DNA of 64,000 nt. Origin: a virus. Position numbers and translations under genes: made by a program. A model generated the notes under the pieces. The model did not search any database and was not told the DNA's origin. It saw only the letters and a list, made by a program, of their open reading frames with translations. Position 1 is the first letter of the stretch, and each line of letters starts with the position of its first letter. Below are positions 28,036-58,552 of the stretch, piece after piece. The stretch is taken from positions 1-64,000 of IMG/VR virus record IMGVR_UViG_3300042549_005585; one strand, given 5' to 3'.

Positions 28036-28551
28036 TTAATATTCAGGGTTTCTATCTTTTTCATCAAACGCACCTTGTATGTAAGCGTATCTACTTTCAT
28101 TTCCTCCATCCCATACATTGTAGTTTTCATCATCATCCTTTCCAGTAAAGAAAATAATATCATATACTTCATCATAAAACTTAGTGTCAGTAGCCATTAG
28201 TTTTTCAAATTTTTCTAATGTATTAGGTCTAAGTTTAAATGCTATATAATTATCAGCTCCTGGTTTGTTTATTTTATATTCTTTCCATAATTGCTTATAG
28301 TCTATTGCTTTAGACTTACGGTTAGGAACAGAAGGAGCATTTGTGAAACCAAAATGAGATACAGCGTAATTATTTTTTACTTTACCTCCAGCAAGTTGTG
28401 GAGCGTCTTCTTTCTTGATTTTTTTAAATGCTTTAGCAGTAGCGATTTGTGGATTGGAAACACCAGGAGCAAAACCAGCACCTGTACCAGTACCAGACAT
28501 TTCTTTTACTAGTTGTGTAGTATACTCCTTAATATATTTTCTAATGTCCAT
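28036..28551 (-). CDS. Head-cluster protein with two putative protease-cut modules
   Basis: A 171-aa protein. The N-terminus MDIRKYIKE-YTTQLVKE-M carries two candidate (L/I/V)-x-E sites, then a Gly-rich TGTGAGFAPGVSNPQ like the segment after the capsid propeptide. At residues 89-98, WKE-YKINKPG matches the junction found in the internal-protein cluster at 39-44 kb. The C-terminal 80 residues (YIAFKLRPNTLEKFEKLMAT ... VYDIIFFTGKDDDENY) would be a separate product. Function unknown; probably packaged in the head. Confidence 0.6.
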   Translation of the reverse strand: MDIRKYIKEYTTQLVKEMSGTGTGAGFAPGVSNPQIATAKAFKKIKKEDAPQLAGGKVKNNYAVSHFGFTNAPSVPNRKSKAIDYKQLWKEYKINKPGADNYIAFKLRPNTLEKFEKLMATDTKFYDEVYDIIFFTGKDDDENYNVWDGGNESRYAYIQGAFDEKDRNPEY

Positions 28552-29409
28552 TTACTTAGATACTTTTTTTAATTCATCTAGTAACTCATGGTATTGTAAT
28601 AATGAGATCATATGCTCATCTTTTACAGTTTTACCTTTAGGAACACCAACCATTAAATTCAATATCTCGTTTAGTTTGATCTGAGTAGTTTTGTCATCTA
28701 GTTTAGGAATGAATGCTTGTAACTCAGCTTTTAAACCATTAACATTCTTGTTAACAAACTCACGTAGTTGTTCTGTATTAGAAATATTATTGATGAATTC
28801 TTTCAACACATTCTTTTGGGTAGTACTGAAATATGAATATTTGTCATTAAATTTCTCAATAAGTAATTTATAAGCCAAGATACGAATATCTTTATCAGCT
28901 CTTGTGAACTCATTGATGACAGCACTTTGAATTTTTTCTTCAGTCAATGGAATTTTTGTGATATGTTCCAACAATGTTAACTTATTAGTGACAATTGTTT
29001 TAGGATCATCAAATTCCTTGCTGTTTTTAGACTCAATTAACGTAGAGATAGACGCTAATACTTTGTAATTATTGATCTTAGCCTTGAAGAAATCATCAAG
29101 ATCGTAGTTCTTCTTGATCTCTTTGATCAAGTTGTACTTATCTTTGTTGATTTGCTCACGATTCAACTTAGTACTTAAATCAAGTACAGTATTAATCAAT
29201 GACTCGGCTTTAGACTCGCTCAACTTTTCAGCTGAAGCAATAGTATAATATAATTTATGCTCCTTGGCTAATTCGCTGTTGGAGAAAAATTTCTTAATGA
29301 TTTTAACCGACGATGAATCTTTGGCTGATAGCACATCAGATGCGATCTGGCGGACAAGTAATTCAAATAAAATACCTGTATTTTTAAATTTGCTGTGTTT
29401 GGCTTTCAT
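28552..29409 (-). CDS. Helical protein between portal and core genes, unknown function
   Basis: A 285-aa, Lys-rich, almost all-helical protein (MKAKHSKFKNTGILFELLVR ... LNEILNLMVGVPKGKTVKD ... LLQYHELLDELKKVSK). No catalytic motif. The position immediately after the portal gene and before the core genes suggests a role in prohead assembly. It has its own ATATTTAT motif, and the next gene begins directly at its stop codon. Confidence 0.6.
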   Translation of the reverse strand: MKAKHSKFKNTGILFELLVRQIASDVLSAKDSSSVKIIKKFFSNSELAKEHKLYYTIASAEKLSESKAESLINTVLDLSTKLNREQINKDKYNLIKEIKKNYDLDDFFKAKINNYKVLASISTLIESKNSKEFDDPKTIVTNKLTLLEHITKIPLTEEKIQSAVINEFTRADKDIRILAYKLLIEKFNDKYSYFSTTQKNVLKEFINNISNTEQLREFVNKNVNGLKAELQAFIPKLDDKTTQIKLNEILNLMVGVPKGKTVKDEHMISLLQYHELLDELKKVSK

Positions 29410-29431
29410 ATAAAGTTAATGCGCACTACTT

Positions 29432-29439
29432 ATAAATAT
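29432..29439 (-). promoter_or_regulatory. ATATTTAT motif, putative phage promoter element
   Basis: Coding strand reads ACATATTTATAA, 22 nt before the ATG at 29409, just after the portal stop codon. Confidence 0.45.
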
Positions 29440-29443
29440 GTTA

Positions 29444-33096: not shown

Positions 33097-33264
33097 TTAT
33101 TTTCCTGAAAGACGTTGTTTAATCCTGTTTGGATCTATTTTTTTAGTGTCTGTTTTTGTACTAGTTAGGGGCTTTTTTGTTTCAGCTGTTTCCTTCATTG
33201 CTTTAGAATAAGGACCTAACTTATTGTCTTGTAAATACTTCTTGTAATCGAAATTGTCTGCCAT
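33097..33264 (-). CDS. 55-aa basic protein with FDYKK N-terminus
   Basis: A 55-codon frame from ATG at 33264: MADNFDYKKYLQDNKLGPYS, then a Lys/Thr-rich stretch (ETAETKKPLTSTKTDTKK) and IDPNRIKQRLSGK. It shares its first ten residues with the 70-aa head protein and the 282-aa protein. It is the last gene before a terminator, 5 nt after the membrane-protein gene. Function unknown. Confidence 0.65.
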   Translation of the reverse strand: MADNFDYKKYLQDNKLGPYSKAMKETAETKKPLTSTKTDTKKIDPNRIKQRLSGK

Positions 33265-33949: not shown

Positions 33950-34798
33950 TTATTTTATAATTCCAGCGTAATATTTCATTTTATTAATGATATACTCATC
34001 TAATTGTTCCTCATCACTTGGTTCTTCTCCTGGTTCTTCAATTGGTGGAGGTGGAGGAGCTGATTGAGCATCTATTTTTTGCAGATATGATGATTTAGAT
34101 ACTAGATCAGCAATACGTTGTTCTAATGATACTTTCAAGTCACGTAAACGTTGTAATTCATCACTTGGTCTATCCTTAATATCTCCAGCTGTTGGTCTTG
34201 ATTTTCTTAATGATAAGATATTTCCTCTAGTCGCAGCTAAACGACGTTGTAATTCACTATACTTTAATGAGTCCTCAAAATCTTGATCTGATATTTTAGG
34301 AGCAAGGATTGGTTCTGCTTTTTCTATCTCATCATCTGATGGTTCCTCTTCTGGTTCTTCCTCGTCTGATTTTCTTTTGCTTAGTTTAGTTGTACCAACA
34401 AACAAATCATCTTCATTATCAGGTAAATCTAACACATCATCTTCGCTTGGTTCTTCTTCTGGTTCTTCTTCTGGTTGAACTGAAGTTGAGCGTAATAGAT
34501 TTTGTTTTAGGTCTGGGATTAGAGTGAATGACTTTCCAGGTACTGTTTCTTTCTCTATTTTACTCTTTAACAATTCAATCTCCATTGGTTCAACACCTTG
34601 ATCAGCTGCTTGTGAAACAAAATAATTGATGATTTGTTGACGTCTATCATCCTTGTAATCAGATGGATTCTTAATTCTGTTTTCCAAGTCAGGAAACTCA
34701 GGATTAAGTTTATATTTTTCCTTTGCTATTCTAGCCAATTCACTAACGCGAAATGACTGCTGCTCAGTTACGAATTTTTTATAATCAAAATCTGCCAT
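33950..34798 (-). CDS. Acidic FDYKK-tagged protein with repeats, possible head-internal protein
   Basis: A 282-aa protein. The N-terminus MADFDYKKFVTE-Q carries the FDYKK tag and a VTE tripeptide. Acidic PEEEPS-type repeats occur at about 110-160 and 255-268, and a coiled coil lies at about 195-240. The C-terminus reads EEQLDE-YIINKMKYYAGIIK, combining a YKINK-like junction with the AGIIK ending of the scaffold protein. These traits tie it to the prohead system, though it is not a known family. Confidence 0.55.
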   Translation of the reverse strand: MADFDYKKFVTEQQSFRVSELARIAKEKYKLNPEFPDLENRIKNPSDYKDDRRQQIINYFVSQAADQGVEPMEIELLKSKIEKETVPGKSFTLIPDLKQNLLRSTSVQPEEEPEEEPSEDDVLDLPDNEDDLFVGTTKLSKRKSDEEEPEEEPSDDEIEKAEPILAPKISDQDFEDSLKYSELQRRLAATRGNILSLRKSRPTAGDIKDRPSDELQRLRDLKVSLEQRIADLVSKSSYLQKIDAQSAPPPPPIEEPGEEPSDEEQLDEYIINKMKYYAGIIK

Positions 34799-34807: not shown

Positions 34808-35326
34808 TTATATATTTTTTAATATTGTTTGCATTCTATCATATGTTGAACCACTAATAACAACTAATTTCTTAGGTGGAAATAATGATAACAAACGAAG
34901 TATTTCTTGGTTGATATTAGTTCTGTACTCTAAATTAGTTTCACGTACACCATTATCTTCCATATTAGTACCAATAGGATCGATATAAAATACGACATCA
35001 TATTGATCACGCAATAACATTGCAGTGTTAACTAACGTCGATTTATACGCGCTATCTACCGATTTAGCCAGCATAGTAAATGCAGATACATCCCATACTG
35101 TTCTATCTGTAATTAAATCTTTATGTAGTAACTCACCAGAACGTTCAGCGATGAATAATAGTTGACCGTTTATAGTTGAATCTGTATTTAATGGTACACC
35201 TAAGTCACGCAAATACTTGCTACGTTCAGTAGCAATATGATAATGTTCAAGTTCAGGTAGTTCAGCCAACGCTTTTACAAGTGTTGTCTTACCAACTGAC
35301 ATAGTTCCGCATAATCCTATTTTCAT
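34808..35326 (-). CDS. P-loop kinase, NadR/AAA_28-like
   Basis: A 172-aa NTPase. The P-loop GTMSVGKTTL is at residues 7-16. ATERSKYLRDLGV follows, then DRTVWDVSAFTMLAKSV (a kinase-type Asp-Arg pair) and a strand VVFYIDPIG. This is the pattern of the AAA_28 family, which includes the ribosylnicotinamide kinase domain of NadR and related deoxynucleoside-kinase-like phage enzymes. The substrate cannot be fixed. A phage nucleotidyltransferase at 54621-55925 could belong to the same nucleotide-salvage theme. Confidence 0.7.
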   Translation of the reverse strand: MKIGLCGTMSVGKTTLVKALAELPELEHYHIATERSKYLRDLGVPLNTDSTINGQLLFIAERSGELLHKDLITDRTVWDVSAFTMLAKSVDSAYKSTLVNTAMLLRDQYDVVFYIDPIGTNMEDNGVRETNLEYRTNINQEILRLLSLFPPKKLVVISGSTYDRMQTILKNI

Positions 35327-35638: not shown

Positions 35639-36625
35639 CTATTTGTTGGAAATTTTACCTAATGTATCTTTAGCCCACTTCTCTTGACCAGCACTTAACT
35701 CACCATTAATAGCGTTTTGAATGAAGTCACGTAGTTGTGGATAAGGTAATTCAACTAATTTAGCAATGAATATATCACGAACATATGGATCACTAACATT
35801 GCTTTTGTTATAAAACTTATTGATGGCATCTGAAATAGCATCTAACATGAATTTACCATAACGTAAATCGTCTGGTTCGTTTCTTAGTTTATCAACACTA
35901 GCAACTGATGCTTGGTTTAATGCTTTATTTTTACTCCATCCTCTTGATCCAATAACTGAGTATATTCCTTTAACTATTTCATGTATTAGAATAGGAAAGT
36001 TAATAGCGCGTGCTTTTACTATCCATTGTTTGTTTGCTTTATCATATACAGGTAAACTACTACCTCCAGGCATGTTATTATCATTAGCAATACCAGCTAA
36101 TATTTGAGCGATAAAATTCTCATCATCATATCCACCTAAAGCAACGTCTAATATTTTACCATATTTGTCTACTAATGTTGGGTCAACACTATCCAAATAA
36201 TCTTTCATTAATAAAAATGAACGAGAACCTCTAACACCAGCACCTTGAGTTAACGCGTTTATTAAACGACGTTTAGCATCCATATCTTCTTTCTCTTCAG
36301 GTGAATATCCTTGTTCGCCTGGTTTGTCTTGGAATTCACCTCTAGGAATAGCGGTGTTTTGAGACATTGGCTCTATCTTAGCATCAATCTTGATATTGTA
36401 TTTGTCAACAATTGGGTAAGCATCTTTAACTACCTCAACTGCTAATTGCTCCAATTCATCTTGGTATCCACGTTCTGCTCTAGCAATTTCACTTGCTAAA
36501 CGCATTGTTTCACCACCATAATTTTTGGCGCCTTGTTTTTCTCTAGCTTGTTGAGATAGTCCCTTTAGCTTCCCCATTGTTTGGGGAGTGAACATTTTTT
36601 CGTATTCCTTCTCCTGTAATTTCAT
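35639..36625 (-). CDS. Phage protein of unknown function with HEIVKG motif
   Basis: A 328-aa protein starting MKLQEKEYEKMFTPQTMGKL. The middle has GIANDNNMPGGSSLPVYDK and the hydrophobic segment ARAINFPILIHEIVKGIYSV. HEIVKG resembles half of a zinc-peptidase HExxH motif but lacks the second His, so I do not call it a peptidase. It overlaps the upstream 86-aa gene by one base. Similar IHEIVKG segments occur in other phage genomes, as I recall, without assigned roles. Confidence 0.55.
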   Translation of the reverse strand: MKLQEKEYEKMFTPQTMGKLKGLSQQAREKQGAKNYGGETMRLASEIARAERGYQDELEQLAVEVVKDAYPIVDKYNIKIDAKIEPMSQNTAIPRGEFQDKPGEQGYSPEEKEDMDAKRRLINALTQGAGVRGSRSFLLMKDYLDSVDPTLVDKYGKILDVALGGYDDENFIAQILAGIANDNNMPGGSSLPVYDKANKQWIVKARAINFPILIHEIVKGIYSVIGSRGWSKNKALNQASVASVDKLRNEPDDLRYGKFMLDAISDAINKFYNKSNVSDPYVRDIFIAKLVELPYPQLRDFIQNAINGELSAGQEKWAKDTLGKISNK

Positions 36626-36885
36626 TACTTACCCGCTTTTAAACGATTGAATATTTTTTGTATGCCTGCTTTCTCGTTTTCACGCATACGAGCTTTTGGA
36701 TTCTCGTCAGGTAAAGCGTCAGGATCCATTGGTTCAAGTGGATTTTCCTCTGGCTCAACTTCTGGCTCTTCTTCTGGTTCAGCAATTTCAGGACTAGGAT
36801 ATGGTTTCCTAATTGGAGCCACAGATGGCAATGTATATTCTTTTATAATATCGCGTACAAGTTCGCGTAATTGTGCTTTGGTCAT
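36625..36885 (-). CDS. Small acidic protein with prohead-protease-type N-terminus
   Basis: An 86-aa protein. MTKAQLRELVRDIIKE-YTL ends in an IKE site followed by Tyr, like the YKINKP-tagged proteins. The rest is Pro/Glu-rich (PEIAEPEEEPEVEPEENP) with a basic C-terminus (KIFNRLKAGK). The size and acidity recall core proteins such as T4 gp67, but the gene lies outside the head cluster. Very likely an internal head protein. Confidence 0.55.
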   Translation of the reverse strand: MTKAQLRELVRDIIKEYTLPSVAPIRKPYPSPEIAEPEEEPEVEPEENPLEPMDPDALPDENPKARMRENEKAGIQKIFNRLKAGK

Positions 36886-39020: not shown

Positions 39021-39028
39021 ATAAATAT
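39021..39028 (-). promoter_or_regulatory. ATATTTAT motif upstream of the denV unit
   Basis: Coding strand reads CTAATATTTATAC, overlapping the stop of the 133-aa gene, 120 nt before the ATG at 38900. Confidence 0.45.
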
Positions 39029-39429
39029 TAGTCTTCTATAAGATAATATTTAATAGAAATAGGATTATAATGGTCTTCTTCAGTTTTATAGGCAATATCT
39101 TTTAAAAATGATCCTTTATTTTCTTCAACATATTGATCCCATTCATTTTCTAAATACTCATCTTCTTCTTCCTGTTCCCAAGTTTCAAAACCTTTACCCA
39201 TTATTGTGATCACCATAGAATTATCATTTTCATCATCATCACTAACATCAACAAGCCATTCAAATGGTTCATAAGAATCATTTTTAACATTATCTGAACA
39301 GTATTTATCATTGATTATAGCACCATATTCTCCATCAGTTGTTTGGTCTGGTTCTACTATTTTTAGCTTATACTTTTTAGATGGGTTATTTATTTTATAT
39401 TCATTAAGTATATCTATTAATTTGATCAT
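39028..39429 (-). CDS. Tagged putative internal head protein
   Basis: A 133-aa acidic protein. MIKLIDILNE-YKINNPSKK is the archetype of the tag: an amphipathic helix ending in LNE, then YKINNP. Past the tag it contains KYKLKIVEPDQTTDGEYGA and an Asp/Glu-rich region (VDVSDDDENDNSMVI, EEDEYLENEWDQYVEENKG). No catalytic motif. By analogy with T4 internal proteins it should be targeted into the prohead, cut after Glu10 and injected. This is the last gene of a tightly packed unit. Confidence 0.6.
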   Translation of the reverse strand: MIKLIDILNEYKINNPSKKYKLKIVEPDQTTDGEYGAIINDKYCSDNVKNDSYEPFEWLVDVSDDDENDNSMVITIMGKGFETWEQEEEDEYLENEWDQYVEENKGSFLKDIAYKTEEDHYNPISIKYYLIED

Positions 39430-39430
39430 A

Positions 39431-40021
39431 TTATCGTTTTAATATTTTAAAGAAATCTTTAGTTGTGTCATTGTACTCCCACCAACCTTCACTTACATCT
39501 TCTTTCCATTGTCCTTTAATACATTCATAGTAATATTCATCATCTTCGTCTTTTTTTAATTCCCATATGTCACCAACAACAAATAAATGAGCAAAATTAT
39601 CAAATATTTCATCTTTAGCATAATACTCATCTTCACGTGTTCGATCAGTACATAGGTATATATCTTTTACTACTTCTATTAATGCTGGTGGGCGTGAGCC
39701 TGGTTTGTTAATTTGGTATTCATCTAATTCTTCGTCTTCATCATCATCTTCTTCTTCTTCATCATAAACACTTTCATCACCTCCACTCTCAACATATTTC
39801 CAATTTTGTTTTATATAATAATATTCACTTGTGTCATCTACATAACTGGTAAAAAATTCAAAAAACTCATCTTTACTTATATTTTTTCCTTCAGGAAATG
39901 TTTTAAGAAAATCAGCCATTATATCTTCATCTTCATAACTTTTAACAATATCTAATACTAATTTATAATTACTATTAGGTCGATTAATTTTATACTCATT
40001 GAGTAAATCTATTAGTTTCAT
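39431..40021 (-). CDS. Tagged two-module putative internal protein
   Basis: A 196-aa acidic protein. The tag MKLIDLLNE-YKINRP is followed by a first module, then an acidic linker (about 84-101) ending ELDE-YQINKPG (cut after Glu101) and a second module. The modules are related: YYYIKQNWKYVESGGDE near residue 67 resembles YYYECIKGQWKEDVSEG near 165. Cleavage would release two proteins of about 92 and 95 residues. Function unknown. Confidence 0.65.
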   Translation of the reverse strand: MKLIDLLNEYKINRPNSNYKLVLDIVKSYEDEDIMADFLKTFPEGKNISKDEFFEFFTSYVDDTSEYYYIKQNWKYVESGGDESVYDEEEEDDDEDEELDEYQINKPGSRPPALIEVVKDIYLCTDRTREDEYYAKDEIFDNFAHLFVVGDIWELKKDEDDEYYYECIKGQWKEDVSEGWWEYNDTTKDFFKILKR

Positions 40022-40022
40022 A

Positions 40023-40382
40023 TTATTTATCTTTTACCATGTAATAAGTTGTTTGTCCTCTATCATCATCATAGTCATCCTCAATTGACACATCAAAATT
40101 TTTCAATGCTCTTAATATTTCTCTATCTTCAATCCATTCCCAATAACCATATTTCATCATTACTCGATCTAATGATGGTGATAATCTAAGTGAATCATCA
40201 AGTCTATTTTCTACTGGTTTTAGAGCGTTATAAACACGAATTAGTAATGATAATTCTTTATTATCTATTTTACGTAGTTTTGGATTGTAATCAACCCATA
40301 ACTTACCTTTAGATGAGTCAGTATTAAATAGTATTGGTTTGTTTATTTCATACTCGTTGAGTAAATCTATTAGTTTGATCAT
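40023..40382 (-). CDS. Tagged putative internal head protein
   Basis: A 119-aa protein. The tag MIKLIDLLNE-YEINKPIL is nearly identical to its neighbours. The body (KGKLWVDYNPKLRKIDNKEL, RLSPSLDRVMMKYGYWEWIE, DDDRGQTTYYMVKD) has no recognised domain. Start and stop are 2-4 nt from the neighbouring genes. Confidence 0.6.
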   Translation of the reverse strand: MIKLIDLLNEYEINKPILFNTDSSKGKLWVDYNPKLRKIDNKELSLLIRVYNALKPVENRLDDSLRLSPSLDRVMMKYGYWEWIEDREILRALKNFDVSIEDDYDDDRGQTTYYMVKDK

Positions 40383-40385
40383 AGT

Positions 40386-40745
40386 TTATACTATTTGTAC
40401 ATTAAATATTCTTTTTAAATCATCTATATTAGCTGTTACTCCAACATAATCACCTAATGCTTCAATCTTACCATTAGCTTTATCTCTAATAACCTTAAAA
40501 ACTTCAGGAGCATATTCTTCAAAAGCGTCATCTTCATCCATAAAATCACTAATATCATTATTTAATATTAATCCATATGAAACATTATTATCACTATCTA
40601 TATCACCTGTGTATTCTCCACTATATTCTTCATTATCAACATCTAATAAAGTTTCTCCATCATCATATATAACAAGAGTAGCGTCTGGGTATTTGTATGG
40701 GTTATTTACTTTATACTCGTTGAGTAAATCTATTAGTTTAATCAT
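40386..40745 (-). CDS. Tagged putative internal head protein
   Basis: A 119-aa acidic protein. The tag MIKLIDLLNE-YKVNNPYKY precedes a body with TLVIYDDGETLLDVDNEEYS and GEYTGDIDSDNNVSYGLI. The C-terminus is ALGDYVGVTANIDDLKRIFN. No family recognised; the body differs from the other tagged proteins, so the tag is modular. Confidence 0.6.
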   Translation of the reverse strand: MIKLIDLLNEYKVNNPYKYPDATLVIYDDGETLLDVDNEEYSGEYTGDIDSDNNVSYGLILNNDISDFMDEDDAFEEYAPEVFKVIRDKANGKIEALGDYVGVTANIDDLKRIFNVQIV

Positions 40746-40748
40746 ATA

Positions 40749-41228
40749 CTAAAAATAGTTAAAAAGTAAAACAACTACTCCTCCGTCTCTAAATCCTTCC
40801 TCATCAGTTACAATAACACCATCTAATTGATCATATTCGTTAGGTGATAAACGATCCCACTTAGTGATAACAGCATATCGTTCTTCACCTTGGTAACGTG
40901 TTCTTACTTCAGTATCACCATCTCCTTTAACAACAAGCATAGGCATATCCATATTCATTGAACCATGAACATATCCTTCGTCTTTAAGGAACTTATCAGC
41001 CAAATGTATTGCTCTAAAGTCTTCTGTTGGTTTAAACTCAACAGCGTATTGTACTGGTTTGTTAATTATAGCTGCTGTATTTAGTTTGAGTTCAGGATGA
41101 GCAGATTTAATTTCAGCGGGTGTTTTACCCACTAAATCCTTTCTAACTATTGGTTCATCAGGATTACCTAGTTGATTTACAACATCATCACCGAATGCTT
41201 CTTTAAGTATGTCTATTAGTTTTTTCAT
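40749..41228 (-). CDS. Tagged putative internal protein, tag variant
   Basis: A 159-aa protein. The tag is MKKLIDILKE-AFGDDVV, with LKE-A in place of LNE-Y. The body includes VGKTPAEIKSAHPELKLNTA, AAIINKPVQYAVEFKPTEDF and a phosphodiesterase-unlike beta region (MDMPMLVVKGDGDTEVRTRY, YAVITKWDRLSPNEYDQLDG). INKPVQY at about residue 55 recalls the YKINKP junction but lacks a preceding (L/I)-x-E. Function unknown. Confidence 0.55.
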   Translation of the reverse strand: MKKLIDILKEAFGDDVVNQLGNPDEPIVRKDLVGKTPAEIKSAHPELKLNTAAIINKPVQYAVEFKPTEDFRAIHLADKFLKDEGYVHGSMNMDMPMLVVKGDGDTEVRTRYQGEERYAVITKWDRLSPNEYDQLDGVIVTDEEGFRDGGVVVLLFNYF

Positions 41229-41587
41229 TAGTATAAAATTAGTAAAAGTATATTATCGTCTTCTTTAATAATTAGTTTAGAATATTTTCTTATGTCCATA
41301 TCAACATTACCTATATCACTAGCTTCATCTTGTCCATCATATAAATAAGCTGCGAATTTATGATGAAAATTTTTGATAACTTGTTCCATTTTATTGAATT
41401 GTTCTTCATTTATACCTTGATCATCTATAAACTTTTCTTTATCATCATATCCCCAAGTTTTTAACATATCTTCTATGCTGTTAGCTTTTGACATAGATGG
41501 ATACCAATAAAATAATTCAGGGTCGTATTTGAATACAGCGGGACTATTTATTTTGTATTCGTCTAATATTTCTGCTAGTTTAATCAT
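41228..41587 (-). CDS. Tagged putative internal head protein
   Basis: A 119-aa protein. The tag is MIKLAEILDE-YKINSPAVF. The body (KYDPELFYWYPSMSKANSIE, MLKTWGYDDKEKFIDDQGIN, KNFHHKFAAYLYDGQDEASD) is helical and has no recognised family. It overlaps both neighbours (4 nt with the 813-aa gene, 1 nt with the 159-aa gene), so it is translationally coupled. Confidence 0.6.
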   Translation of the reverse strand: MIKLAEILDEYKINSPAVFKYDPELFYWYPSMSKANSIEDMLKTWGYDDKEKFIDDQGINEEQFNKMEQVIKNFHHKFAAYLYDGQDEASDIGNVDMDIRKYSKLIIKEDDNILLLILY

Positions 41588-46163: not shown

Positions 46164-46550
46164 TTATGCTGGTTCGTATTCTTTACCGCCAATTTTAGCG
46201 AATAAAATCGTTTTAGTGTTGATTATACGATAACCGTCGGACGTTTTAGCGGCGATCGGATCCCATACAGGCAATAAACCTTTAGCTACTGGATCGTACG
46301 GCAATTCACCACCATGTAGATATTTTTTAACTCCCAAGCGACAGTTCATGGTGCGTTCAGTACCATCTTTCTTAATAAACTTAACAGTGAAAAATGCACC
46401 TTTAGTATCCTTAATTAACTGAATGATATCATCCAATGGTAATTTAGTTGGTCCACTAGTGGGAGTTGAAGCAGGTGCTTCTTCTTCTTCACTAAGTATT
46501 TCCTTAATGATACTTTTTACTATTTGTCTTTTAATTTTGTCGCTTGCCAT
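46164..46550 (-). CDS. SH3 beta-barrel-type phage protein with protease-type N-terminus
   Basis: A 128-aa protein. The N-terminal 25 residues (MASDKIKRQIVKSIIKEILS with E-EEE) carry IKE and LSE sites, then a Pro/Thr linker. The body AFFTVKFIKKDGTERTMNCR, LGVKKYLHGGELPYDP and LLPVWDP matches a small domain annotated in many phages as an SH3 beta-barrel fold protein. The N-terminus suggests it is processed and packaged. It forms a one-gene unit between a motif and a terminator. Confidence 0.65.
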   Translation of the reverse strand: MASDKIKRQIVKSIIKEILSEEEEAPASTPTSGPTKLPLDDIIQLIKDTKGAFFTVKFIKKDGTERTMNCRLGVKKYLHGGELPYDPVAKGLLPVWDPIAAKTSDGYRIINTKTILFAKIGGKEYEPA

Positions 46551-47401: not shown

Positions 47402-48349
47402 TTAATCTATGTCAAGATCGATTGAGTCATCGTTCTTGTCTACTATAATGAAATCCTTGACTCCACTATCACTAGTCATGTAGATTCGAATATCATTTCC
47501 GTACGCTTCAATTTTAGTGACAGTAACTTTATCTCCTTTAGAAAAATTACCCATTCCACTTGCTACAGTAAATGTATCTCCATCTTTGATATGAGCGGCA
47601 GATACCGCTTCGTTTGTTTTTTGTTTCATAACCTTGTTTATAATTCTTTGTTTAATTTCTTTAATAACACTACGTCTTCTCTTTTGCTCAGCCAACGGAG
47701 CCTCTTCCTCACCTGGTAATGCTAAACTACCTGGTTCACCTTCACCTTCACCAGGCGCTGGTGTTTCAGGAGCTGCTTCAGGTGCTGTTTCACCTCCTAT
47801 AGGTGTTTCAGGAGCAGGAGCTTCAGCTGATGTTTCTGTTCCTACTGCTTCAATAGGTTTAGGAGAGCCTATAGATAATAGAGTAGCAATTTTCTCAACC
47901 GCGTTCTCAAACTCACCTAAATTAAGTAAGTAATAACGTCTACCTCCTGCTTTTATCTCATATGTTTTACCCATAAACTTCATATAGAAGGATTGGTTAT
48001 TATGAAGTACAACTTTAAAAGTAGTTGGTTTAGGCGCTATAATATAGATACCTGTAACGTAATTTCTAAAGTCAGGAGTCATTAAATCCTCAATAGTACG
48101 ATTAAGTGAAGGGTATGTCTGTAAAATATATTCCAATGGATTAGACTCAAAAGTGATAGGTTCATCTTTTGGTTCTTCAATAGGTGTCTCTTCAGGAGTA
48201 TCTACAGGTGTTTCTTCAGGTGTGTCTACAGGTGTTTCTTCAGGAGTTTCCTCATCAACCTCCATAAGATCTACATCATGTCCTTTGATACGCTCTTGAA
48301 CTTTTTGTATTATTGCATTACGCAATATGTCTTTTTTAGTTTGTTCCAT
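47402..48349 (-). CDS. Protein with ETPVDTPE repeats, unknown function
   Basis: A 315-aa protein. The N-terminal helix [20 protein letters not shown] is followed by an acidic Pro/Thr repeat (about 35-60). A globular module (about 68-160: EYILQTYPSLNRTIEDLMTP, FKVVLHNNQSFYMKFMGKTY) comes next, then a Pro/Gly/Glu linker. A second helix ends SVIKE-IKQRIINK, and a small beta module (HIKDGDTFTVASGMGNFSKG DKVTVTKIE) closes it. VIKE near residue 228 is a possible processing site between modules. No function assigned. Confidence 0.55.
   Translation of the reverse strand: MEQTKKDILRNAIIQKVQERIKGHDVDLMEVDEETPEETPVDTPEETPVDTPEETPIEEPKDEPITFESNPLEYILQTYPSLNRTIEDLMTPDFRNYVTGIYIIAPKPTTFKVVLHNNQSFYMKFMGKTYEIKAGGRRYYLLNLGEFENAVEKIATLLSIGSPKPIEAVGTETSAEAPAPETPIGGETAPEAAPETPAPGEGEGEPGSLALPGEEEAPLAEQKRRRSVIKEIKQRIINKVMKQKTNEAVSAAHIKDGDTFTVASGMGNFSKGDKVTVTKIEAYGNDIRIYMTSDSGVKDFIIVDKNDDSIDLDID
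48182..48253 (-). repeat. 24-nt tandem repeat encoding ETPVDTPE
   Basis: Three direct copies of a 24-nt unit (plus strand aggtgtttcttcaggtgtgt plus ctac) encode an acidic Pro/Thr linker. Copies differ at a few positions. Confidence 0.85.
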
Positions 48350-48711
48350 TAGTATGTTTCTTCATTGTTTTTTTCAGTCATATACTCAGTTACACTGTGT
48401 ATGTAGTCTGAAGCTAATGTAATGTAAGCTGATATCCAACCTGGAAGTTCAGTTCCTGGTTGTATCATTCTGTATGCTTTAGCTCCATTCATAAGCATAT
48501 CTCTTAATTCACCTTTAGCCATTGTAGCTTCATGGTCAGATGATGGTTGACCTAAAACATCTCCACCTTCGTTAGTTGTAGCTTTGCTAATTGCTTTACG
48601 ACGCTTAAGAAGATATTTGTCTGTTTTATCTACTTTTCCATCATTGTTGATGTCAGAATCTTCTTGTCCTACAGGATCCATTGATTCTAATATTTTGGAT
48701 AGTTTAATCAT
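48349..48711 (-). CDS. Tagged EF-hand/dockerin-like protein
   Basis: A 120-aa protein. The tag [13 protein letters not shown] ends in an ILE site. Next is [20 protein letters not shown], a dockerin/EF-hand-type calcium loop (Asp, Asn, Asp, Gly, Asp in order). The C-terminal part has [30 protein letters not shown], a helical segment I have seen in other phage proteins. It probably binds Ca2+. The start overlaps the stop of the endolysin gene by one base. Confidence 0.6.
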
Positions 48712-49329: not shown

Positions 49330-50517
49330 TTAATTTTTATCCATAACCACCATAGCTTGGTAATTACCATTTGGCAATTGCCACATAGCTTCATCTACTA
49401 TAAAACTACCAAAACTAGCTTGGTCTGTTTTCATTTTTTTAAAAATTTGAGTTCTAGCATTTGCACGAGCTGCCATTCTTGCTGCTGATTCTGTTTGTCC
49501 AACAGCTTCACCAAACGCTTTAGATGTAGTAGAATCACTATTATACCCACTCCATTCTTTTCTTATTTTTTCTAAATCTCTATCTTGAGTTCGTTTGCCA
49601 GGTATCATTACAGTTTTTGGCTCGTCTTGTTTCTTTTGTATTTTACTTTGAACAAAAGATACACCTTGCTTAACCTTATCTTTTAGTCCTTGAAAATTTT
49701 GCGCTTGTCCTGTTTTAGGAGTACCTAATGACATTAAAGTAATTCCGGCTCCAGCTAATGCTTGTTTCCAATTCATTTCTGTTATATTTTCTTTTAATGA
49801 TTTATCATCATTGTAATTCTTAACAAGGAAAGCATCTATAGTTGATTTCTTATAACCCAATAATTCACCCATACGTTTAGTATCTTCATATGATGCTTTA
49901 GAAGAAGCATACCCACCGTATCTATTAATTATATTAGTAAATTCTTTAGCATCTGCTTCAGCTCCAGGAACATACACTACATATACTTCAGCCCCTGGTC
50001 TTTGGTCTATACCTATTTTTTTAAGTCCGTTATCATTAATTATTTTAATAGTTTCAGCAGCATCAGATTGTCCTCTTAAAGCAATCATAGCTACTTTTCT
50101 TTTACCATTAACTAATGTTTGAACAGAGCCAACATTGCTGTACGCCTCAGATGGATCAATATTTTCTTTCATTTTATTTAAACGTTGTGTTTTTGCTTTA
50201 GATGCTTCTCTACGTTTTTCAATATAGTCTAAAGCACGTTTTAAACGAGATTTTACATCAGGATCTTTAGCTTTACTATATGCTGCTCTTACACGTTGAT
50301 GAATTACATTAATAATTTGTGATTTACGAGCATGTGGTTTAGACTTAAATGATGATTTTGATAAAGTATCTTTTATATCTTGAGTTGTTTTAAATTTAAT
50401 ACTTACAGTATCTTTTGGATTTTCATCAGTATATAAACGACGGCCTGATCCTTTAGGTTTTTTTCCTGTACCTACTTTAGGATCTGTTTCATTTAATATA
50501 TCTAATAACTCGTTCAT
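49330..50517 (-). CDS. Tagged multi-module protein, putative processed internal protein
   Basis: A 395-aa protein from the ATG at 50517; a longer frame would overlap the upstream gene. The tag is MNELLDILNE-TDPK. Module 1 is very basic: KVGTGKKPKGSGRRLYTDEN, then ARKSQIINVIHQRVRAAYSK. Module 2 (about 125-235) contains YGGYASSKASYEDTKRMGEL. Next comes LKENITE-MNWKQALAGAGI near residue 247, a T4-like cleavage site followed by a hydrophobic, signal-like stretch. The last module (ESAARMAARANARTQIFKKM, WQLPNGNYQAMVVMDKN) resembles LPP20-type domains. Cleavage would free that domain. Confidence 0.6.
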   Translation of the reverse strand: MNELLDILNETDPKVGTGKKPKGSGRRLYTDENPKDTVSIKFKTTQDIKDTLSKSSFKSKPHARKSQIINVIHQRVRAAYSKAKDPDVKSRLKRALDYIEKRREASKAKTQRLNKMKENIDPSEAYSNVGSVQTLVNGKRKVAMIALRGQSDAAETIKIINDNGLKKIGIDQRPGAEVYVVYVPGAEADAKEFTNIINRYGGYASSKASYEDTKRMGELLGYKKSTIDAFLVKNYNDDKSLKENITEMNWKQALAGAGITLMSLGTPKTGQAQNFQGLKDKVKQGVSFVQSKIQKKQDEPKTVMIPGKRTQDRDLEKIRKEWSGYNSDSTTSKAFGEAVGQTESAARMAARANARTQIFKKMKTDQASFGSFIVDEAMWQLPNGNYQAMVVMDKN

Positions 50518-50889: not shown

Positions 50890-51342
50890 TTATTTATTAA
50901 ATTTAACTTTTGCTTTTTTAGTGTTAGGTACAAATTGTTTTCCTTGTTTAGACCCAGCTATTTTTTTACGAGTAGTAGCGGCACGCTCAGCTTTAGTTAA
51001 ACTTTGAGCTTTAGCTTTAGGTAAACAACGTTGTGTTGGTTTACCTTTAGGCATTGAACCACAATCACCAGCTATATTTCCTTGAGTGTCAATTCTAACC
51101 CACTTTTCTTTATCAAACCAATTCTTTAATGACTCATTCTCAATTTCTTCCTTCCAAGTTTTTTGTTTTTTACCTTTAAACTTAATACTACCCTTACATA
51201 CTTTAACGGCACGACCAGATAGATAAGCAGATGATTTCTCACCAGCGGCTTTACGAGCTGCAAGATATGCTTTACCACGAGGGCAAAGTTTACTCTCAAC
51301 AATCTCAATAGCTAATGATTCAACAATTCTTTTTATGTCCAT
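50890..51342 (-). CDS. Basic Cys-containing phage protein, putative internal protein
   Basis: A 150-aa protein from ATG at 51342; an upstream in-frame ATG would overlap the neighbour. The N-terminus is MDIKRIVESLAIEIVE-SK. Next is CPRGKAYLAARKAAGEKSSA with CKGSIKFKGKK. The second half, WVRIDTQGNIAGDCGSMPKG then RCLPKAKAQSLTKAERAATT and a Lys-rich tail, resembles small Cys-containing domains of phages and large DNA viruses. Four Cys could bind zinc. The high Lys/Arg content suits binding to packaged DNA. Confidence 0.6.
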   Translation of the reverse strand: MDIKRIVESLAIEIVESKLCPRGKAYLAARKAAGEKSSAYLSGRAVKVCKGSIKFKGKKQKTWKEEIENESLKNWFDKEKWVRIDTQGNIAGDCGSMPKGKPTQRCLPKAKAQSLTKAERAATTRKKIAGSKQGKQFVPNTKKAKVKFNK

Positions 51343-51343: not shown

Positions 51344-51577
51344 TTACTTATTAGTTGGATGCCACCAATTGCAGCAATATTCATCAGCGGGATATGGAAC
51401 TTCAGCTTTATCATCATTCCATTGTAGCCAATATTTGTTATTACATTTGTTACCTTTTGCTACCCAATATTCACAGTTAGCACACATAGAACCACCTTTA
51501 GTCACCCTCATACCAGGCTGATGGTCAGCTGGGTATTCAATTGGTCCTTCTAGTAGTAGAGCGTCTATTAGTTTCAT
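51344..51577 (-). CDS. Tagged Cys-rich mini-protein
   Basis: A 77-aa protein. The tag MKLIDALLLE-GPIEYP is followed by GSMCANCEYWVAKGNKCNNK and a C-terminal PYPADEYCCNWWHPTNK. Five Cys in the order CxxC...C...CC with Trp/Tyr between suggest a zinc or iron-sulphur site, similar to small high-potential-type cluster proteins, though this is not certain. It overlaps the upstream 63-aa gene by one base. Confidence 0.55.
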   Translation of the reverse strand: MKLIDALLLEGPIEYPADHQPGMRVTKGGSMCANCEYWVAKGNKCNNKYWLQWNDDKAEVPYPADEYCCNWWHPTNK

Positions 51578-51768
51578 TATTTCTTTTTGTCTTTAGCAGA
51601 TAAATAAGCGGCTACAGCCATTTTTTGTCTTTTCTCTTTAGACTTACCTCTAAATTGAGGTGCTTTAGATTTTTCAAAATCAGAAATGTACTCACCTGCG
51701 CCCATTGAGGGTTTAAGTTTTTCTTGAATGATTTCTTTTACTAAAGCGCGTAATTTACTATTTGTCAT
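51577..51768 (-). CDS. 63-aa basic protein with IQE processing site
   Basis: A 63-aa protein from ATG at 51768, which overlaps the upstream gene by 11 nt. MTNSKLRALVKEIIQE-KLK parallels the N-terminus at 36625-36885 (MTKAQLRELVRDIIKE-YTL). The rest is SMGAGEYISDFEKSKAPQFR then GKSKEKRQKMAVAAYLSAKD, basic and helical. Probably an internal head protein. Confidence 0.55.
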   Translation of the reverse strand: MTNSKLRALVKEIIQEKLKPSMGAGEYISDFEKSKAPQFRGKSKEKRQKMAVAAYLSAKDKKK

Positions 51769-51974: not shown

Positions 51975-52394
51975 TTATTTTTTTATCCAATGATATGTGT
52001 CAGCCATTGTCACTAATTTATATCCATCAGGTAAATTCTTTTCCATATATGTTTTATATACACGAGCACGTTTTTGTTCTGTGGGTCTAGCTATAAAATC
52101 ATCTGGTTGGTGTTTTTTGACAAAGTCTAATCCTATTTCAAATACTGTAGACAACACACGTAATGCTACATTCTCTTGAGTATCTCTTCCCATTTCCTCA
52201 ACAGTATTAAATAATAATTCATATGTGTTATTACCATTCCAAGTGATACCAACTGTGTATTTGTTTTCAGGAGTACGAAATGAATAGAAGTAGTTACCAT
52301 CATCATCAACAAAATCATATTTCCATTTATATGGGTTTTGGATTTCACCAACTTCAGTTAGTACTTCTTGTAATATGTTAGTTAACTTAATCAC
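51975..52394 (-). CDS. Tagged protein, paralogue of the 122-aa protein at 54251
   Basis: A 139-aa protein. The tag MIKLTNILQE-VLTE has LQE and LTE sites. The body (TPENKYTVGITWNGNNTYEL, LFNTVEEMGRDTQENVALRV, LSTVFEIGLDFVKKHQPDDF) aligns throughout with the untagged protein at 54251-54619. It is an alpha/beta single-domain protein with no known function. The paired tagged and untagged copies suggest one packaged and one made in the cell. Confidence 0.65.
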   Translation of the reverse strand: MIKLTNILQEVLTEVGEIQNPYKWKYDFVDDDGNYFYSFRTPENKYTVGITWNGNNTYELLFNTVEEMGRDTQENVALRVLSTVFEIGLDFVKKHQPDDFIARPTEQKRARVYKTYMEKNLPDGYKLVTMADTYHWIKK

Positions 52395-52750
52395 TAATAT
52401 GGTTTTGTTAATTGAACGTTACCAATAGGAGTAAAGTTTCTTACTCCTTCAATTCGTTTAATATCGTTAACTATAGTTTTAAGTGTTTGACTTGAGAATC
52501 CTTTATATGGATGGGGGTCAATCTTTAGATTAAGTTCTGTCTTATAGAATTTAGCACCTGTAACATCTCCTGATGTAGGCAATTCCTTAGATGTTGCTAC
52601 TGTAACACCTGCTATAGAACGTATATCAGATAATATTTCTGTTTGTCCGCGGTTTTCAGTATCAGTAATTAAAATACCTCTAAACTTGTAAACGTTTGGG
52701 TTTTCCGCTTCGGATAGTAACTCCGCTAATATGGTAGATAATTTAACCAT
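52394..52750 (-). CDS. Tagged protein with ferredoxin-like alternation
   Basis: A 118-aa protein. The tag MVKLSTILAE-LLSE-AEN carries LAE and LSE sites. The body has two similar beta-alpha-beta halves: TEILSDIRSIAGVTVATSKE, and LNLKIDPHPYKGFSSQTLKT with IVNDIKRIEGVRNFTPIGNV, suggesting a ferredoxin-like fold. Function unknown. One-base overlap with the upstream gene. Confidence 0.6.
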   Translation of the reverse strand: MVKLSTILAELLSEAENPNVYKFRGILITDTENRGQTEILSDIRSIAGVTVATSKELPTSGDVTGAKFYKTELNLKIDPHPYKGFSSQTLKTIVNDIKRIEGVRNFTPIGNVQLTKPY

Positions 52751-54620: not shown

Positions 54621-55925
54621 TTATAACTTAGCTTTAGCCAATTTAGTGTAATATTTTGGGTCTTCCCATAAATGATCAATAGCAATTTTAAGTGCTGTTT
54701 TCTTATCTTTAGTATGTTCCATTTCTACATTAAGACCTTTTTTAAGTTCTTGTTTAATAACATTAATATCAACACTATGATGCTTAGCTATATCTTCTAA
54801 ATTCTTGCCCTTACCAACACCACTTAAACTTTCATATATTTCTTCATGTTGTTCACCATACTTTCTTAACAACACACCAGCCATAGCGTTAGCTTCATTT
54901 TCTTCAGGTGAGCCTGTTAAGCCTGAATCAGGATTAAGTTGGTTGTCTTCATCTTGTTTACGGTGTACTAATTCATGAGCGATAGTTCTTAAAATATCCG
55001 CTGTTAATCTATTATTAGTGATAACTAATAGTTTATTACTAGATGGATTATAACCACCTAATGAACGCATATCCTTAGCCATACTTGAATCATCAAGTAA
55101 TTCTATTTGAGGTAGTACTTTTAATCCTAATTCTAACCTAGCAAAGTCAATAAATTTATGTATTGCTTGTTCTTTTTCCTCATTTTCATTTAATATTCTC
55201 TTCCACCAACTAACATCAAATGTATTTTCTTGTAATTCATCTACAGAAATATAATCAATACCTAATACACGCATTATATCATCAAAAAATCCTTTTTGCA
55301 TAACAGCATCAGGAAAACAATTCTTAAATTCCTCTAGTGTGTTAAGATATCCATTTCTAGCTTTACTAAAGTCAGTTGTATCTCTTTGTGTTGAACGAAC
55401 TGCGGCAGCGTATTGATTAAGTCTAACTATAACTTCTCTAACATATGTGCTTGAGATAGGAGCGCCATTAACTAAAAATTTCTCTTGAACATATAATGGC
55501 ATTACTCTAGTACCAAATGCTTTAGTAAGTGCTTGAATATAACTCGCATCATCAGCCTCACCAGCACCCAATGCAACATATGCTTTTAAATTCAAATCAC
55601 CATCAAATGCTTGGAATATGTCTTGTATTGGTGTTTTGTTATTTGATAGTCTAATTTCTATTTTTGGATTTGGGTTAGCTTTTAAGAATATATCCCAAAT
55701 AGCCATACTTTCATCAGGTGTGATATTGTCATTAGTTTTACTACTAATAATAACAATAATTTTGATTGTGTATGCTCTAGCGGCCAATTCCATAACAGAT
55801 GCATAGTGTCCCTTATGTGGTGGTTTGAAGTTACCAGGATAGAATACTATTCCCGCTGGGTTAGCGAGATTATTAGATTCTTCTTCTTTTAATAATGAAG
55901 ACAATGATATATAGTTAGATGGCAT
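54621..55925 (-). CDS. Nucleotidyltransferase fused to M78-like metallopeptidase, tagged
   Basis: A 434-aa fusion. The N-terminus MPSNYISLSSLLKE-EE ends in LKE. Residues about 24-170 are a cytidylyltransferase-like domain with FYPGNFKPPHKGH (HxGH at 37-40) and APISSTYVRE (157-164), as in NMN/pantetheine adenylyltransferases. Residues about 250-360 form a zinc-peptidase domain with IAHELVH at 315-321 and SPEENEANAMAGVLL, the M78/ImmA-type third-ligand region. A C-terminal module (EMEHTKDKKTALKIAIDHLW, EDPKYYTKL) resembles DUF5661. RILNE-N at 243-248 lies between the two enzyme domains and could be cut by the prohead protease. Confidence 0.78.
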   Translation of the reverse strand: MPSNYISLSSLLKEEESNNLANPAGIVFYPGNFKPPHKGHYASVMELAARAYTIKIIVIISSKTNDNITPDESMAIWDIFLKANPNPKIEIRLSNNKTPIQDIFQAFDGDLNLKAYVALGAGEADDASYIQALTKAFGTRVMPLYVQEKFLVNGAPISSTYVREVIVRLNQYAAAVRSTQRDTTDFSKARNGYLNTLEEFKNCFPDAVMQKGFFDDIMRVLGIDYISVDELQENTFDVSWWKRILNENEEKEQAIHKFIDFARLELGLKVLPQIELLDDSSMAKDMRSLGGYNPSSNKLLVITNNRLTADILRTIAHELVHRKQDEDNQLNPDSGLTGSPEENEANAMAGVLLRKYGEQHEEIYESLSGVGKGKNLEDIAKHHSVDINVIKQELKKGLNVEMEHTKDKKTALKIAIDHLWEDPKYYTKLAKAKL

Positions 55926-55945
55926 ATTGTTATTTTTAACTGACG

Positions 55946-55953
55946 ATAAATAT
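55946..55953 (-). promoter_or_regulatory. ATATTTAT motif, putative phage promoter element
   Basis: Coding strand reads GTAAATATTTATCG, 20 nt before the ATG at 55925. Confidence 0.45.
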
Positions 55954-56742: not shown

Positions 56743-57677
56743 GATAGTTCTATTTTTTTATATATTAATTCACTTAATGTTAGTTGTTCTGCTTTATGGA
56801 CTAATGAGGTAAATTTCTCAAAACCCATTTCAGATGGATCCTTATCATCTAAATCCACCAGATAAACGTCTTTACCCAAGTTAAGTAATTCCTCAGCGTA
56901 TTTCAAAGCATCCTTAAGAGCATCCTTATCTAACGCTATATAAACTGTTTTAACGTTAGTTTCTACTAGTTTCATCATCAATGCCTTAGGAATTGTTTTA
57001 CCAAATAATGGTATTACATTACGCTTAATAGCAATAGCATCAAATATACCTTCACATAGTATAACTGGTATATCCCAATTAATAAAATATTCTAGTCCAA
57101 TAATAGCGTTTTTATTACACTTAGGACTATCATACTTGCGTGATGGATCTTTTTCAAATGAACGAGCAATAAAATAATTAATAGACCCATCTTTATTATA
57201 CGATGGTACTACAATCATATTTTTGTAACGTCCTTCCTCACAAAAACCAATATTATATTTGAGAATATCTTCTTTAGTAATACCTCGTTTCTTAAGATAT
57301 GCTAATGCATGTTTAGCTGAAATATCTGTACGTTGTATACTGAGTAATGATTTGTATTCTTTGGGTAACTCTATTTTAGTAATATCTACTTCTTCCTCAT
57401 CCTTCTTATCAGTGTAGTTGAGTATAGAACGTAACTCAAGTATTTTGTCTTGAGGTACCTTAAGTTTCTTGAATAAACCAAGTAAGGATTTGCCTTTAGC
57501 GTTGCAAACCCAACAATGCCAAAAGTTCTCACCTTTGGAGTTAGGTACTAGATTAACCTCTAGTTTTGGCTTATGATGTTGACAGAATGGACAATGGTAC
57601 GCGTAGTTATTACCACTTGTTTCTTTTCCCTTACCCAACACACTATTTACTGTACTTACTAATGCGGCATTTAGCAT
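56739..57677 (-). CDS. DNA primase, DnaG/T4 gp61-type
   Basis: A 312-aa primase. The CHC2 zinc finger is YHCPFCQHHKPK (Cys29, Cys32, His34/35) and FWHCWVCNAKGKSL (Cys55, Cys58). A TOPRIM domain has ILCEGIFDAIAI (Glu209) and YIALDKDALKDA (Asp250, Asp252). It makes RNA primers for lagging-strand synthesis. There is no helicase domain, which must be encoded elsewhere. It lies between a GIY-YIG-like gene and the PD-(D/E)XK gene. Confidence 0.9.
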   Translation of the reverse strand: MLNAALVSTVNSVLGKGKETSGNNYAYHCPFCQHHKPKLEVNLVPNSKGENFWHCWVCNAKGKSLLGLFKKLKVPQDKILELRSILNYTDKKDEEEVDITKIELPKEYKSLLSIQRTDISAKHALAYLKKRGITKEDILKYNIGFCEEGRYKNMIVVPSYNKDGSINYFIARSFEKDPSRKYDSPKCNKNAIIGLEYFINWDIPVILCEGIFDAIAIKRNVIPLFGKTIPKALMMKLVETNVKTVYIALDKDALKDALKYAEELLNLGKDVYLVDLDDKDPSEMGFEKFTSLVHKAEQLTLSELIYKKIELS

Positions 57678-57694
57678 GCATAGAAGTTAACGTC

Positions 57695-58156
57695 TTATTC
57701 CTGCGGGGCCAAATCTTTACGGAAGAACTTGCCTAAAATGTTATCATTATAGCAATTCTCGGTATGTAGAACTCCATATACAATTTGATGATATATCTCA
57801 TAATATGTTTGTTGTTTTTTAGTATCACAGAATTGTAATATAACACGTTCAAATTGATCTTCACCTAATTGCTTCACATCCGCGAGTAATTCTTTAGAAC
57901 TGCCCCAATATGCTTTCCATCCACTATCTACCTGTTCGGTTTTAGTAGTTGACCTACGTCCTGGTCCGGATTGTTCAGCTAATTCTTTTTTGGTGAGTTT
58001 CTTCTTCTTGTTGTGGAAGAATGCTTTTTTACCTATATAAAACTTATTATTTGTTTTATTTCGGATAATATAGATAAAACCATAATATTGTGGTTCTAAT
58101 ATTTCTGGCCACTCAGCGAGTGTACCATCATCTAGGTAATGCAACCATTTATTCAT
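57695..58156 (-). CDS. GIY-YIG-like nuclease
   Basis: A 153-aa protein. YGFIYIIRNKTNNKFYIGKK has the GIY-YIG beta-hairpin (GFIYI ... FYIGKK). WKAYWGSSKELLADVKQLGE and QFERVILQFCDTKKQQTYYE follow, where a Glu in YYE is the likely metal ligand. Similar phage proteins are seen next to replication genes and are sometimes annotated Seg-like homing enzymes. The gene sits in frame in a compact operon with no sign of being an intron or insertion, so a resident role is as likely. Confidence 0.72.
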   Translation of the reverse strand: MNKWLHYLDDGTLAEWPEILEPQYYGFIYIIRNKTNNKFYIGKKAFFHNKKKKLTKKELAEQSGPGRRSTTKTEQVDSGWKAYWGSSKELLADVKQLGEDQFERVILQFCDTKKQQTYYEIYHQIVYGVLHTENCYNDNILGKFFRKDLAPQE

Positions 58157-58168
58157 AAACTTTAATTA

Positions 58169-58552
58169 TTACTCACCTTTTGTGATATTTTCATCTGGGA
58201 CTATGATAGCATTTATGCTTGATAAACCTGCGAGTTTAGCTGCAGTATATCTATGGTGACCATCTAAAATTTGAAATTTATTTCCTTTTTTACGAACTAA
58301 TATTGGATCTATTGTTTTGCCACTCTTATATTTACTAACTAAGCGCTTAACAATTTTAATAGATTCAGGTGATTTCATCTTTATAGCGGGTTCATAGCGA
58401 ACCAGCTTGCTAAGGGGTATCTGTACTTTAGGAGCATTCTTAATATCTTCATCAGAAAAATCTAAATCTGCTCCTACATCTTTCCCTTTATTATATAAGA
58501 CTATTTTAATATCTTCTTTTATCTCTTTTAATATGTTTATTAATTTAATCAT
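58169..58552 (-). CDS. Tagged ParB/sulfiredoxin-like protein
   Basis: A 127-aa protein. The tag is MIKLINILKE-IKED. The body has VQIPLSKLVRYEPAIKMKSP then IDPILVRKKGNKFQILDGHH and RYTAAKLAGLSSINAIIV, the ParB N-terminal (ParBc) domain with its ILDGHHR signature. Isolated ParBc domains in phages act as nucleases, CTP-binding switches or modifiers. There is no DNA-binding HTH. The tag suggests that it enters the cell with the DNA. Confidence 0.75.
   Translation of the reverse strand: MIKLINILKEIKEDIKIVLYNKGKDVGADLDFSDEDIKNAPKVQIPLSKLVRYEPAIKMKSPESIKIVKRLVSKYKSGKTIDPILVRKKGNKFQILDGHHRYTAAKLAGLSSINAIIVPDENITKGE

Follow-up and report, generated by a model that had tools for sequence, protein, structure and literature searches.

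Why should about 25 proteins of one phage, otherwise different from one another, begin with similar short peptides? The question arises in the virus record IMGVR_UViG_3300042549_005585, of which we analysed bases 1-64000 of 79,814 bp (the window). Gene order and gene families in the window are T4-like (gp17, gp20, Peptidase_S77 (gp21), a gene in the scaffold position, and gp23), and Flavobacterium phage immuto (Immutovirus) is the closest isolate, with 62% terminase identity; this is probably a T4-like phage with a host among the Bacteroidota. The original prediction read the N-termini as capsid-targeting sequences that a gp21-like protease cuts after [LI]xE, on proteins packed into the head for injection. 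Every point of this interpretation that can be tested on sequence agrees with it, and it is supported to that extent. We consider it very probable that the N-termini target a large, exchangeable set of cargo proteins to the capsid in the manner of T4, because [LI]xE is enriched in one gene block only, the tags go together with the S77 protease, they swap between protein bodies, and tagged enzymes have been reported from virions. From this we infer packaging, cleavage and injection in this phage.

Of the 46 genes in the 27677-58552 block, 28 carry [LI]xE in residues 2-20, where internal windows of these proteins would predict 6.1. Outside the block the motif is found in 4 of 43 genes, with 9.2 expected (Fisher p=2e-7 for block against rest). 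The [LI] lies mostly at position 7 or 8. The form typical of T4, a short propeptide of about 10-19 residues at the N-terminus with [LI]xE as its end, is present here too. A whole-genome count of [LI]xE was too blunt, with little or no excess in immuto, S-PM2 and P-SSM2, so the analysis proceeded by tag families and gene blocks.

Four tag families can be distinguished: A, MKKSxLRxIIKE; B, MDNFDLKKFLxE; C, MIKLxDILxE; and D, NEIKRMQxLAGI-x-[LI]xE. The original prediction spoke of at least fifteen tagged proteins, and every N-terminus that it quoted is present in the window, on the minus strand like all the tagged genes. Type C alone accounts for 15 N-termini between 39028 and 58552, and the set is larger than claimed, with type B at 27812, 33097 and 33950 (genes are named by their first coordinate) and type A or A-like tags at 28036, 36625, 46164, 50890, 51577 and perhaps 47402. 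The description of the proteins as otherwise unrelated holds in part; genes 39028, 39431, 40023, 40386, 41228 and 41584 share MIKLxxxLNE/YKINxP (a slash marks the predicted cleavage site), and some of their modules are related to each other. Three of the tag families, the identity of one of them with the end of the scaffold, and a polyprotein go beyond what had been predicted.

Relatives were fetched by terminase, together with whole genomes, and the families were tested with degenerate DNA patterns scanned blindly over viral contigs. The type-C pattern fell at the start of an open reading frame (ORF) in 97 of 101 matches, while a permuted control of the same make-up gave 41 matches in the whole collection, 13 of them at starts of ORFs of at least 40 amino acids; with the Glu omitted, type B fell at ORF starts in 78 of 89 distinct matches (FLxE in 75 of the 78) and type A in 101 of 121 (76 with IIKE, 96 with [LI]xE in residues 9-24), all of these being counts of related sequences within each family and not independent trials. 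A baseplate-cluster protein that is kept in relatives (70287-70751 of the record; 81525-81944 in immuto) also starts with an A-like helix (MKSAEFLKELRKIIREE...); it may belong to the head or neck in spite of its place among tail genes, or else contradict the reading as a head tag.

How closely do the tags follow T4? Mutagenesis of T4 IPIII assigned residues 4 and 7 to targeting and residues 8 and 10 to processing (PMC9026906), and IPIII and type C share Glu at 10 and a hydrophobic residue at each of 4, 7 and 8. In type C the hydrophobic fraction is 0.72 at position 4 and 0.57 at position 7, where control windows have 0.33 and 0.32; the 4/7/8/10 spacing is absent from types A, B and D. The helix had also been called amphipathic, but the hydrophobic moment of single type-C tags is not distinct from that of shuffled sequences, and this part of the description is weak. 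As in T4, where IPI, IPII, IPIII and Alt are processed by gp21, propeptides of 10-19 residues ending in [LI]xE precede unrelated bodies in a genome that encodes S77. T4 differs in having four such cargo proteins, against about 25 tagged genes in 80 kb here, and the present phage differs in its four tag families, one of them the scaffold C-terminus, in polyprotein cargo and in other kinds of enzymes. In T4 itself, a 274-residue protein near the gene 2 position (76061-76885 of NC_000866) starts with MAIFQIINE/STP, which fits a capsid-targeting sequence.

The gp21-like protease of the original prediction is borne out by its profile match (Table 1), and the tags travel with it. Among distinct contigs of about 98 kb or more tagged with type A, B, C or D, 26 of 28 encode S77; among contigs reached by control patterns, S77 is present in 2 of 27 overall and in 1 of 5 of about 98 kb or more. 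The tag is thus not found equally in relatives lacking a gp21-type protease, because nearly all large tagged contigs encode S77 and the controls mostly do not. The two large S77-negative tagged contigs (105 and 124 kb) may be fragments. Type-C contigs taken separately have S77 in 16 of 32, including all six above 100 kb, and gp23 in 14 of 32.

Tags swap between bodies. The dockerin-like body of 48349 has type C here, type B in L019 and G006, and type D in L609 and L170. A CPxPTQNIELNL body has type B in L071, L213 and L224 and type C in L217, L229, L181 and L220, and the 5'-nucleotidase, untagged in the window (53784), is C-tagged in L216, L221, G002 and immuto. The 82 type-C proteins found elsewhere, which include zeta-toxin-like and other P-loop kinases, RNase_T, HD domain, DUF6934 and DUF5872 proteins, have the tag columns alone in common, with a mean column identity of 6%. 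Several type-C bodies (L169, L192, L224, and MelJY01 60276-60926) begin with HxTT-like or YRGV stretches; by eye these may suggest ADP-ribosyltransferase-like folds (compare T4 Alt).

Cyanophages (Kyanoviridae) show a likeness in virion enzymes, with nucleotidyltransferase cargo whose tag ends in [LI]xE (PMC3037559, PMC10665884). Sullivan et al. detected the T4-GC190 cytidylyltransferase in S-SM1 virions (PMC3037559), and its N-terminus is MKKFSAFLNE/A. Mass spectrometry of S-CREM2 virions, in which the authors could not exclude contamination, found a S-adenosylmethionine hydrolase, an APH-like kinase and a cytidylyltransferase (PMC10665884). These start with MKDFDSFLEE, MKRFDAFLTE and MKNFSSFLTE, and the virion enzymes with T4-type tags are gp6, gp14 and gp154. 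The Cas9-like gp12 (L714:7704-10313), also reported in virions, has LRFASFMAE/A at residues 17-26. Of 6 annotated S-CREM2 N-termini that fit the pattern M..h..hh.E (h, hydrophobic), 5 were detected in virions, compared with 52 of 219 coding sequences overall (p=0.003). In S-SCSM1, one of three is labelled as a virion protein, the NMNAT (MKSFLQFLKE/A), and the match of the pattern to UvsX is a false positive. Cyanophages differ in that the tag is of the T4-like form MKxFxxFLxE and there are few per genome (about 5 in S-CREM2). We found no wording on such a tag in the S-CREM2 paper (PMC10665884), and, in the library searched, no paper on cyanophage capsid-targeting tags beyond one T4 review. S-SM1 protein SSM1_191 (T4-GC1454, L445:24422-25843) holds a DPVGQEDxDxDNDG...DKYLxxRRKAI segment that is tagged in the lineage studied here, and this body is therefore common to cyanophages and this group.

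Other phages were compared as well. In immuto (host Flavobacterium sp. LMO8), gene order is similar and types A, B, C and D are all present, but types A and B predominate, type C is less frequent, and the tagged proteins are mostly annotated as hypothetical. The immuto tags include MIKLIDLLTE (24569-24994), MISIYNILKE (103366-103806), LAGIITE (25061 and 111675) and FLVE or FLTE endings (1803, 103806, 117631 and 118632). In the giant phages phiKZ and SPN3US, head and ejected proteins have N-terminal propeptides that the giant-phage prohead protease cuts after Glu. SPN3US differs in its AxE motif and in propeptides mostly of 111-254 residues; the present genome does not follow that AxE rule, as [AG]xE within residues 2-20 is not enriched (5 observed, 8.9 expected). 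In P1, the N-terminal 30 residues of DarB suffice to carry a reporter into the capsid (PMC9024508), whereas Dar proteins have no shared consensus and P1 has no separate scaffold.

Type D hints at how cargo may enter the head. In 4,220 proteins of relatives, [RK]-hydrophobic-[QKE]-x-[LIY]-A-G has 42 copies near N-termini, 25 at C-termini and 3 inside the chain. Nearly all 25 C-terminal copies are in the scaffold gene between the protease and gp23; the motif also ends a Mel-JY01 protein directly before gp23 and one RM378 protein. An independent blind scan for RMQxLAGI gave 67 scaffold-like C-termini, 35 N-termini, 5 internal matches and 6 cut by contig ends. N-terminal type-D copies are followed by [LIV]xE in 75 of 83 cases, and 100 of the 123 C-terminal copies have [LI]xE no more than 16 residues ahead of them (chance expectation 0.42). 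The gp22-like scaffold itself ends in RMQxLAGI, so type D appears to be a copy of that end joined to a cleavage site. Cargo proteins with the motif at the C-terminus (33950 and 44018 in the window, and others in L201 and L224) would likewise borrow the scaffold's binding end. We found no paper on the LAGI motif. Weaker parallels link type C to the N-termini of gp23 in this group (MSTVQSLIE/SAN here, resembling a short type-C tag; MDLKNILNE/G in L251) and of T4 gp24 (MAKINELLRE/S).

Part of the cargo appears to be made as a polyprotein. The 813-residue protein at 41584-44025 has five internal junctions (after residues 207, 310, 503, 601 and 706) of the form E/YKIN(K/T)P, with [LI]xE before four of the five. 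The L278 version lacks one 98-residue module, and the gap falls exactly between two junctions. The body that stands free in 40023 is the second module of a longer L278 protein, behind LNE/YEIKKP (92% identity), and a tagged L278 gene that stands free is similar to the second module of 39431. A protein of 1,615 residues in L632 has seven junctions, all LxE/I(K/Q)(I/V)(N/K)KP. Of the 21 internal junctions counted altogether, 19 fit [LI]xE. The internal junctions keep the P3 and P1 cleavage residues and not the MIKLxxI targeting half, which is what one would expect of sites retained for cutting and not for targeting. Relatives thus gain, lose or free whole modules at the junctions as in a putative protease-processed polyprotein, and we infer that the 813-residue protein would be cut there. 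As a general junction marker E/YKINKP was rejected; outside this lineage its matches are chance.

Table 1. Head genes and tagged genes of the window; a slash marks the predicted cleavage site
Feature	Coordinates	Strand	Tag or other evidence
gp23 major capsid protein	22921..24573	-	PF07068 E=2e-77
gp22-like scaffold	24594..25739	-	position between protease and gp23; C-terminus ...TIVE/SDAVINRLQKLAGIIK, with type-D motif
gp21-like prohead protease (Peptidase_S77)	25871..26515	-	PF03420 E=8e-30; PHROG 207 head maturation protease; N-terminus MSKQVLIE/YF
70-aa (amino acid) protein	27812..28024	-	type B, MDNFDYKKFVFNAKANINE
Tagged protein	28036..28551	-	type A-like, MDIRKYIKE; internal KQLWKE/YKINKP module
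55-aa protein	33097..33264	-	type B, MADNFDYKKYLQDNKL...
Tagged protein	33950..34798	-	type B, MADFDYKKFVTE; C-terminal D-like motif LDE/YIINKMKYYAGIIK
Tagged protein	36625..36885	-	type A, MTKAQLRELVRDIIKE
Tagged protein	39028..39429	-	type C, MIKLIDILNE/YKINNP
Tagged protein	39431..40021	-	type C, MKLIDLLNE/YKINRP; internal LDE/YQINKP
Tagged protein	40023..40382	-	type C, MIKLIDLLNE/YEINKP
Tagged protein	40386..40745	-	type C, MIKLIDLLNE/YKVNNP
Tagged protein	40749..41228	-	type C, MKKLIDILKE/A
Tagged protein	41228..41587	-	type C, MIKLAEILDE/YKINSP
813-aa putative cargo polyprotein	41584..44025	-	N-terminal tag MIKLTEILNE/YKVNKP
685-aa cargo	44018..46075	-	type C, MTRLSNILQE; C-terminal D-like motif LKE/EADRLKQLANIKND
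Tagged protein	46164..46550	-	type A, MASDKIKRQIVKSIIKEILSE
Possibly tagged protein	47402..48349	-	possible type A (weak)
Dockerin/EF-hand-like body	48349..48711	-	type C, ending ILE/S; predicted site after residue 9
Tagged protein	49330..50517	-	type C, MNELLDILNE; start at internal ATG
DUF5872 body	50890..51342	-	type A-like, MDIKRIVESLAIEIVE
Tagged protein	51344..51577	-	type C, MKLIDALLLE/G; in relatives MISLIQILKE/G
Tagged protein	51577..51768	-	type A, MTNSKLRALVKEIIQE
DUF6934-like body (weak match)	51975..52394	-	type C, MIKLTNILQE/V; GTG start
Tagged protein	52394..52750	-	type C, MVKLSTILAE
Nucleotidyltransferase (CTP_transf_like) + DUF5661, weak M78 match	54621..55925	-	MPSNYISLSSLLKE/E
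ParB N-terminal domain	58169..58552	-	type C, MIKLINILKE/I

A structure model of the 685-residue cargo at 44018 has a predicted local distance difference test (pLDDT) score of 72.6, with the tag (residues 1-14) as a low-confidence appendage; Foldseek against the PDB gave no significant match. No PDB relative of the 54621 enzyme was found by sequence, and the PADLOC matches, except for a DEDDh exonuclease, were weak and scattered. A nucleotide-kinase-like P-loop protein (KIGLCGTMSVGKTTLVKAL) at 34808-35326, the FAD-type oxidoreductase at 36888-38198 and the nucleotidyltransferase at 54621-55925 are kept in many relatives and are possibly a gene set related to nicotinamide adenine dinucleotide.

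Could the shared N-termini have arisen without any function in the head? Duplication and recombination might leave such a footprint, a common 5' segment that aids gene shuffling: the genes of 39028-41587 are adjacent and have MIKLIDLLNEYKINxP in common, some tag DNA is nearly identical, and one module was lost between YKINKP repeats. We nevertheless judge this improbable. The tags differ at many synonymous codons while their residues are kept, [LI]xE ends all four different families, type D is found at C-termini as well and equals the scaffold end, and the seven housekeeping families nearby (53206, 34808, 36888, 55954, 56739, 57695 and 28552) are free of tags in all 495 homologues. The synonymous variation and the C-terminal copies of peptide D also speak against a translation-initiation or mRNA signal of late genes with an incidental peptide, as do the untagged genes interspersed among tagged ones in the same block; most tagged genes lack a clear Shine-Dalgarno sequence, so that conserved early coding sequence could matter, but we find this explanation hardly credible. 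The tags might instead address another site (host membrane, nucleoid, host protease or tail), with [LI]xE as the end of a helix and not a cleavage site. The type A N-terminus of the baseplate-cluster protein and the unremarkable amphipathicity of individual tags would fit such a destination. Against it stand the tight S77 link, the match to T4 positions 4, 7, 8 and 10, the tagged enzymes in published virion proteomes, and the internal junctions that keep P3 and P1 residues and not the targeting half, and we regard it as distinctly improbable.

Several observations nonetheless weigh against capsid targeting as we read it. The tagged proteins of this phage and of the isolated relative immuto are known from sequence alone. 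Most p-values are too small, because homologous sequences do not count as independent, and the tag patterns are fuzzy, with overlap between classes A and C. S77 is missing from half of the type-C contigs, but those without it are mostly short fragments. Two junctions depart from [LI]xE, WKE in 28036 and VEE in 41584, and the AlphaFold model of the 813-residue polyprotein (mean pLDDT 35) is uninformative on whether junctions lie in linkers. Among cyanophage proteins, SSCSM1_30 of S-SCSM1 (MKTFKQFMSE/S) carries no virion label.

In the capsid-targeting model, the short tag would bind the assembling prohead core or shell and draw the protein inside. The gp21-type protease would then cut after [LI]xE and free the mature protein, which would stay in the DNA-filled head and presumably be injected with the genome. 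At least four interchangeable tag families would serve a fast-changing protein set. On cargo, type D, at the N-terminus and sometimes the C-terminus with its cleavage site inward, probably mimics the binding end of the scaffold; a scaffold-end peptide with an inner cleavage site suggests that entry is probably by this mimicry. Part of the cargo would be made as a polyprotein, its modules separated at sites of the same protease.

What is new relative to T4 capsid targeting is the scale, the variety of tags, the scaffold-end tag and the polyprotein. We see about an even chance that removable scaffold-end tags, polyprotein effectors diced by the protease in the head, and free shuffling together give the phage an evolving repertoire of injected effectors. 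The scaffold-end mimic and the protease-diced polyprotein would be new routes of loading a virus head. The tag would account for the metabolic enzymes and kinases that recur in T4-like virions, and a phage-injected nuclease annotated as Cas9 (S-CREM2 gp12) would merit attention. As a readable address, it would make hundreds of unknown phage proteins predicted injected effectors.

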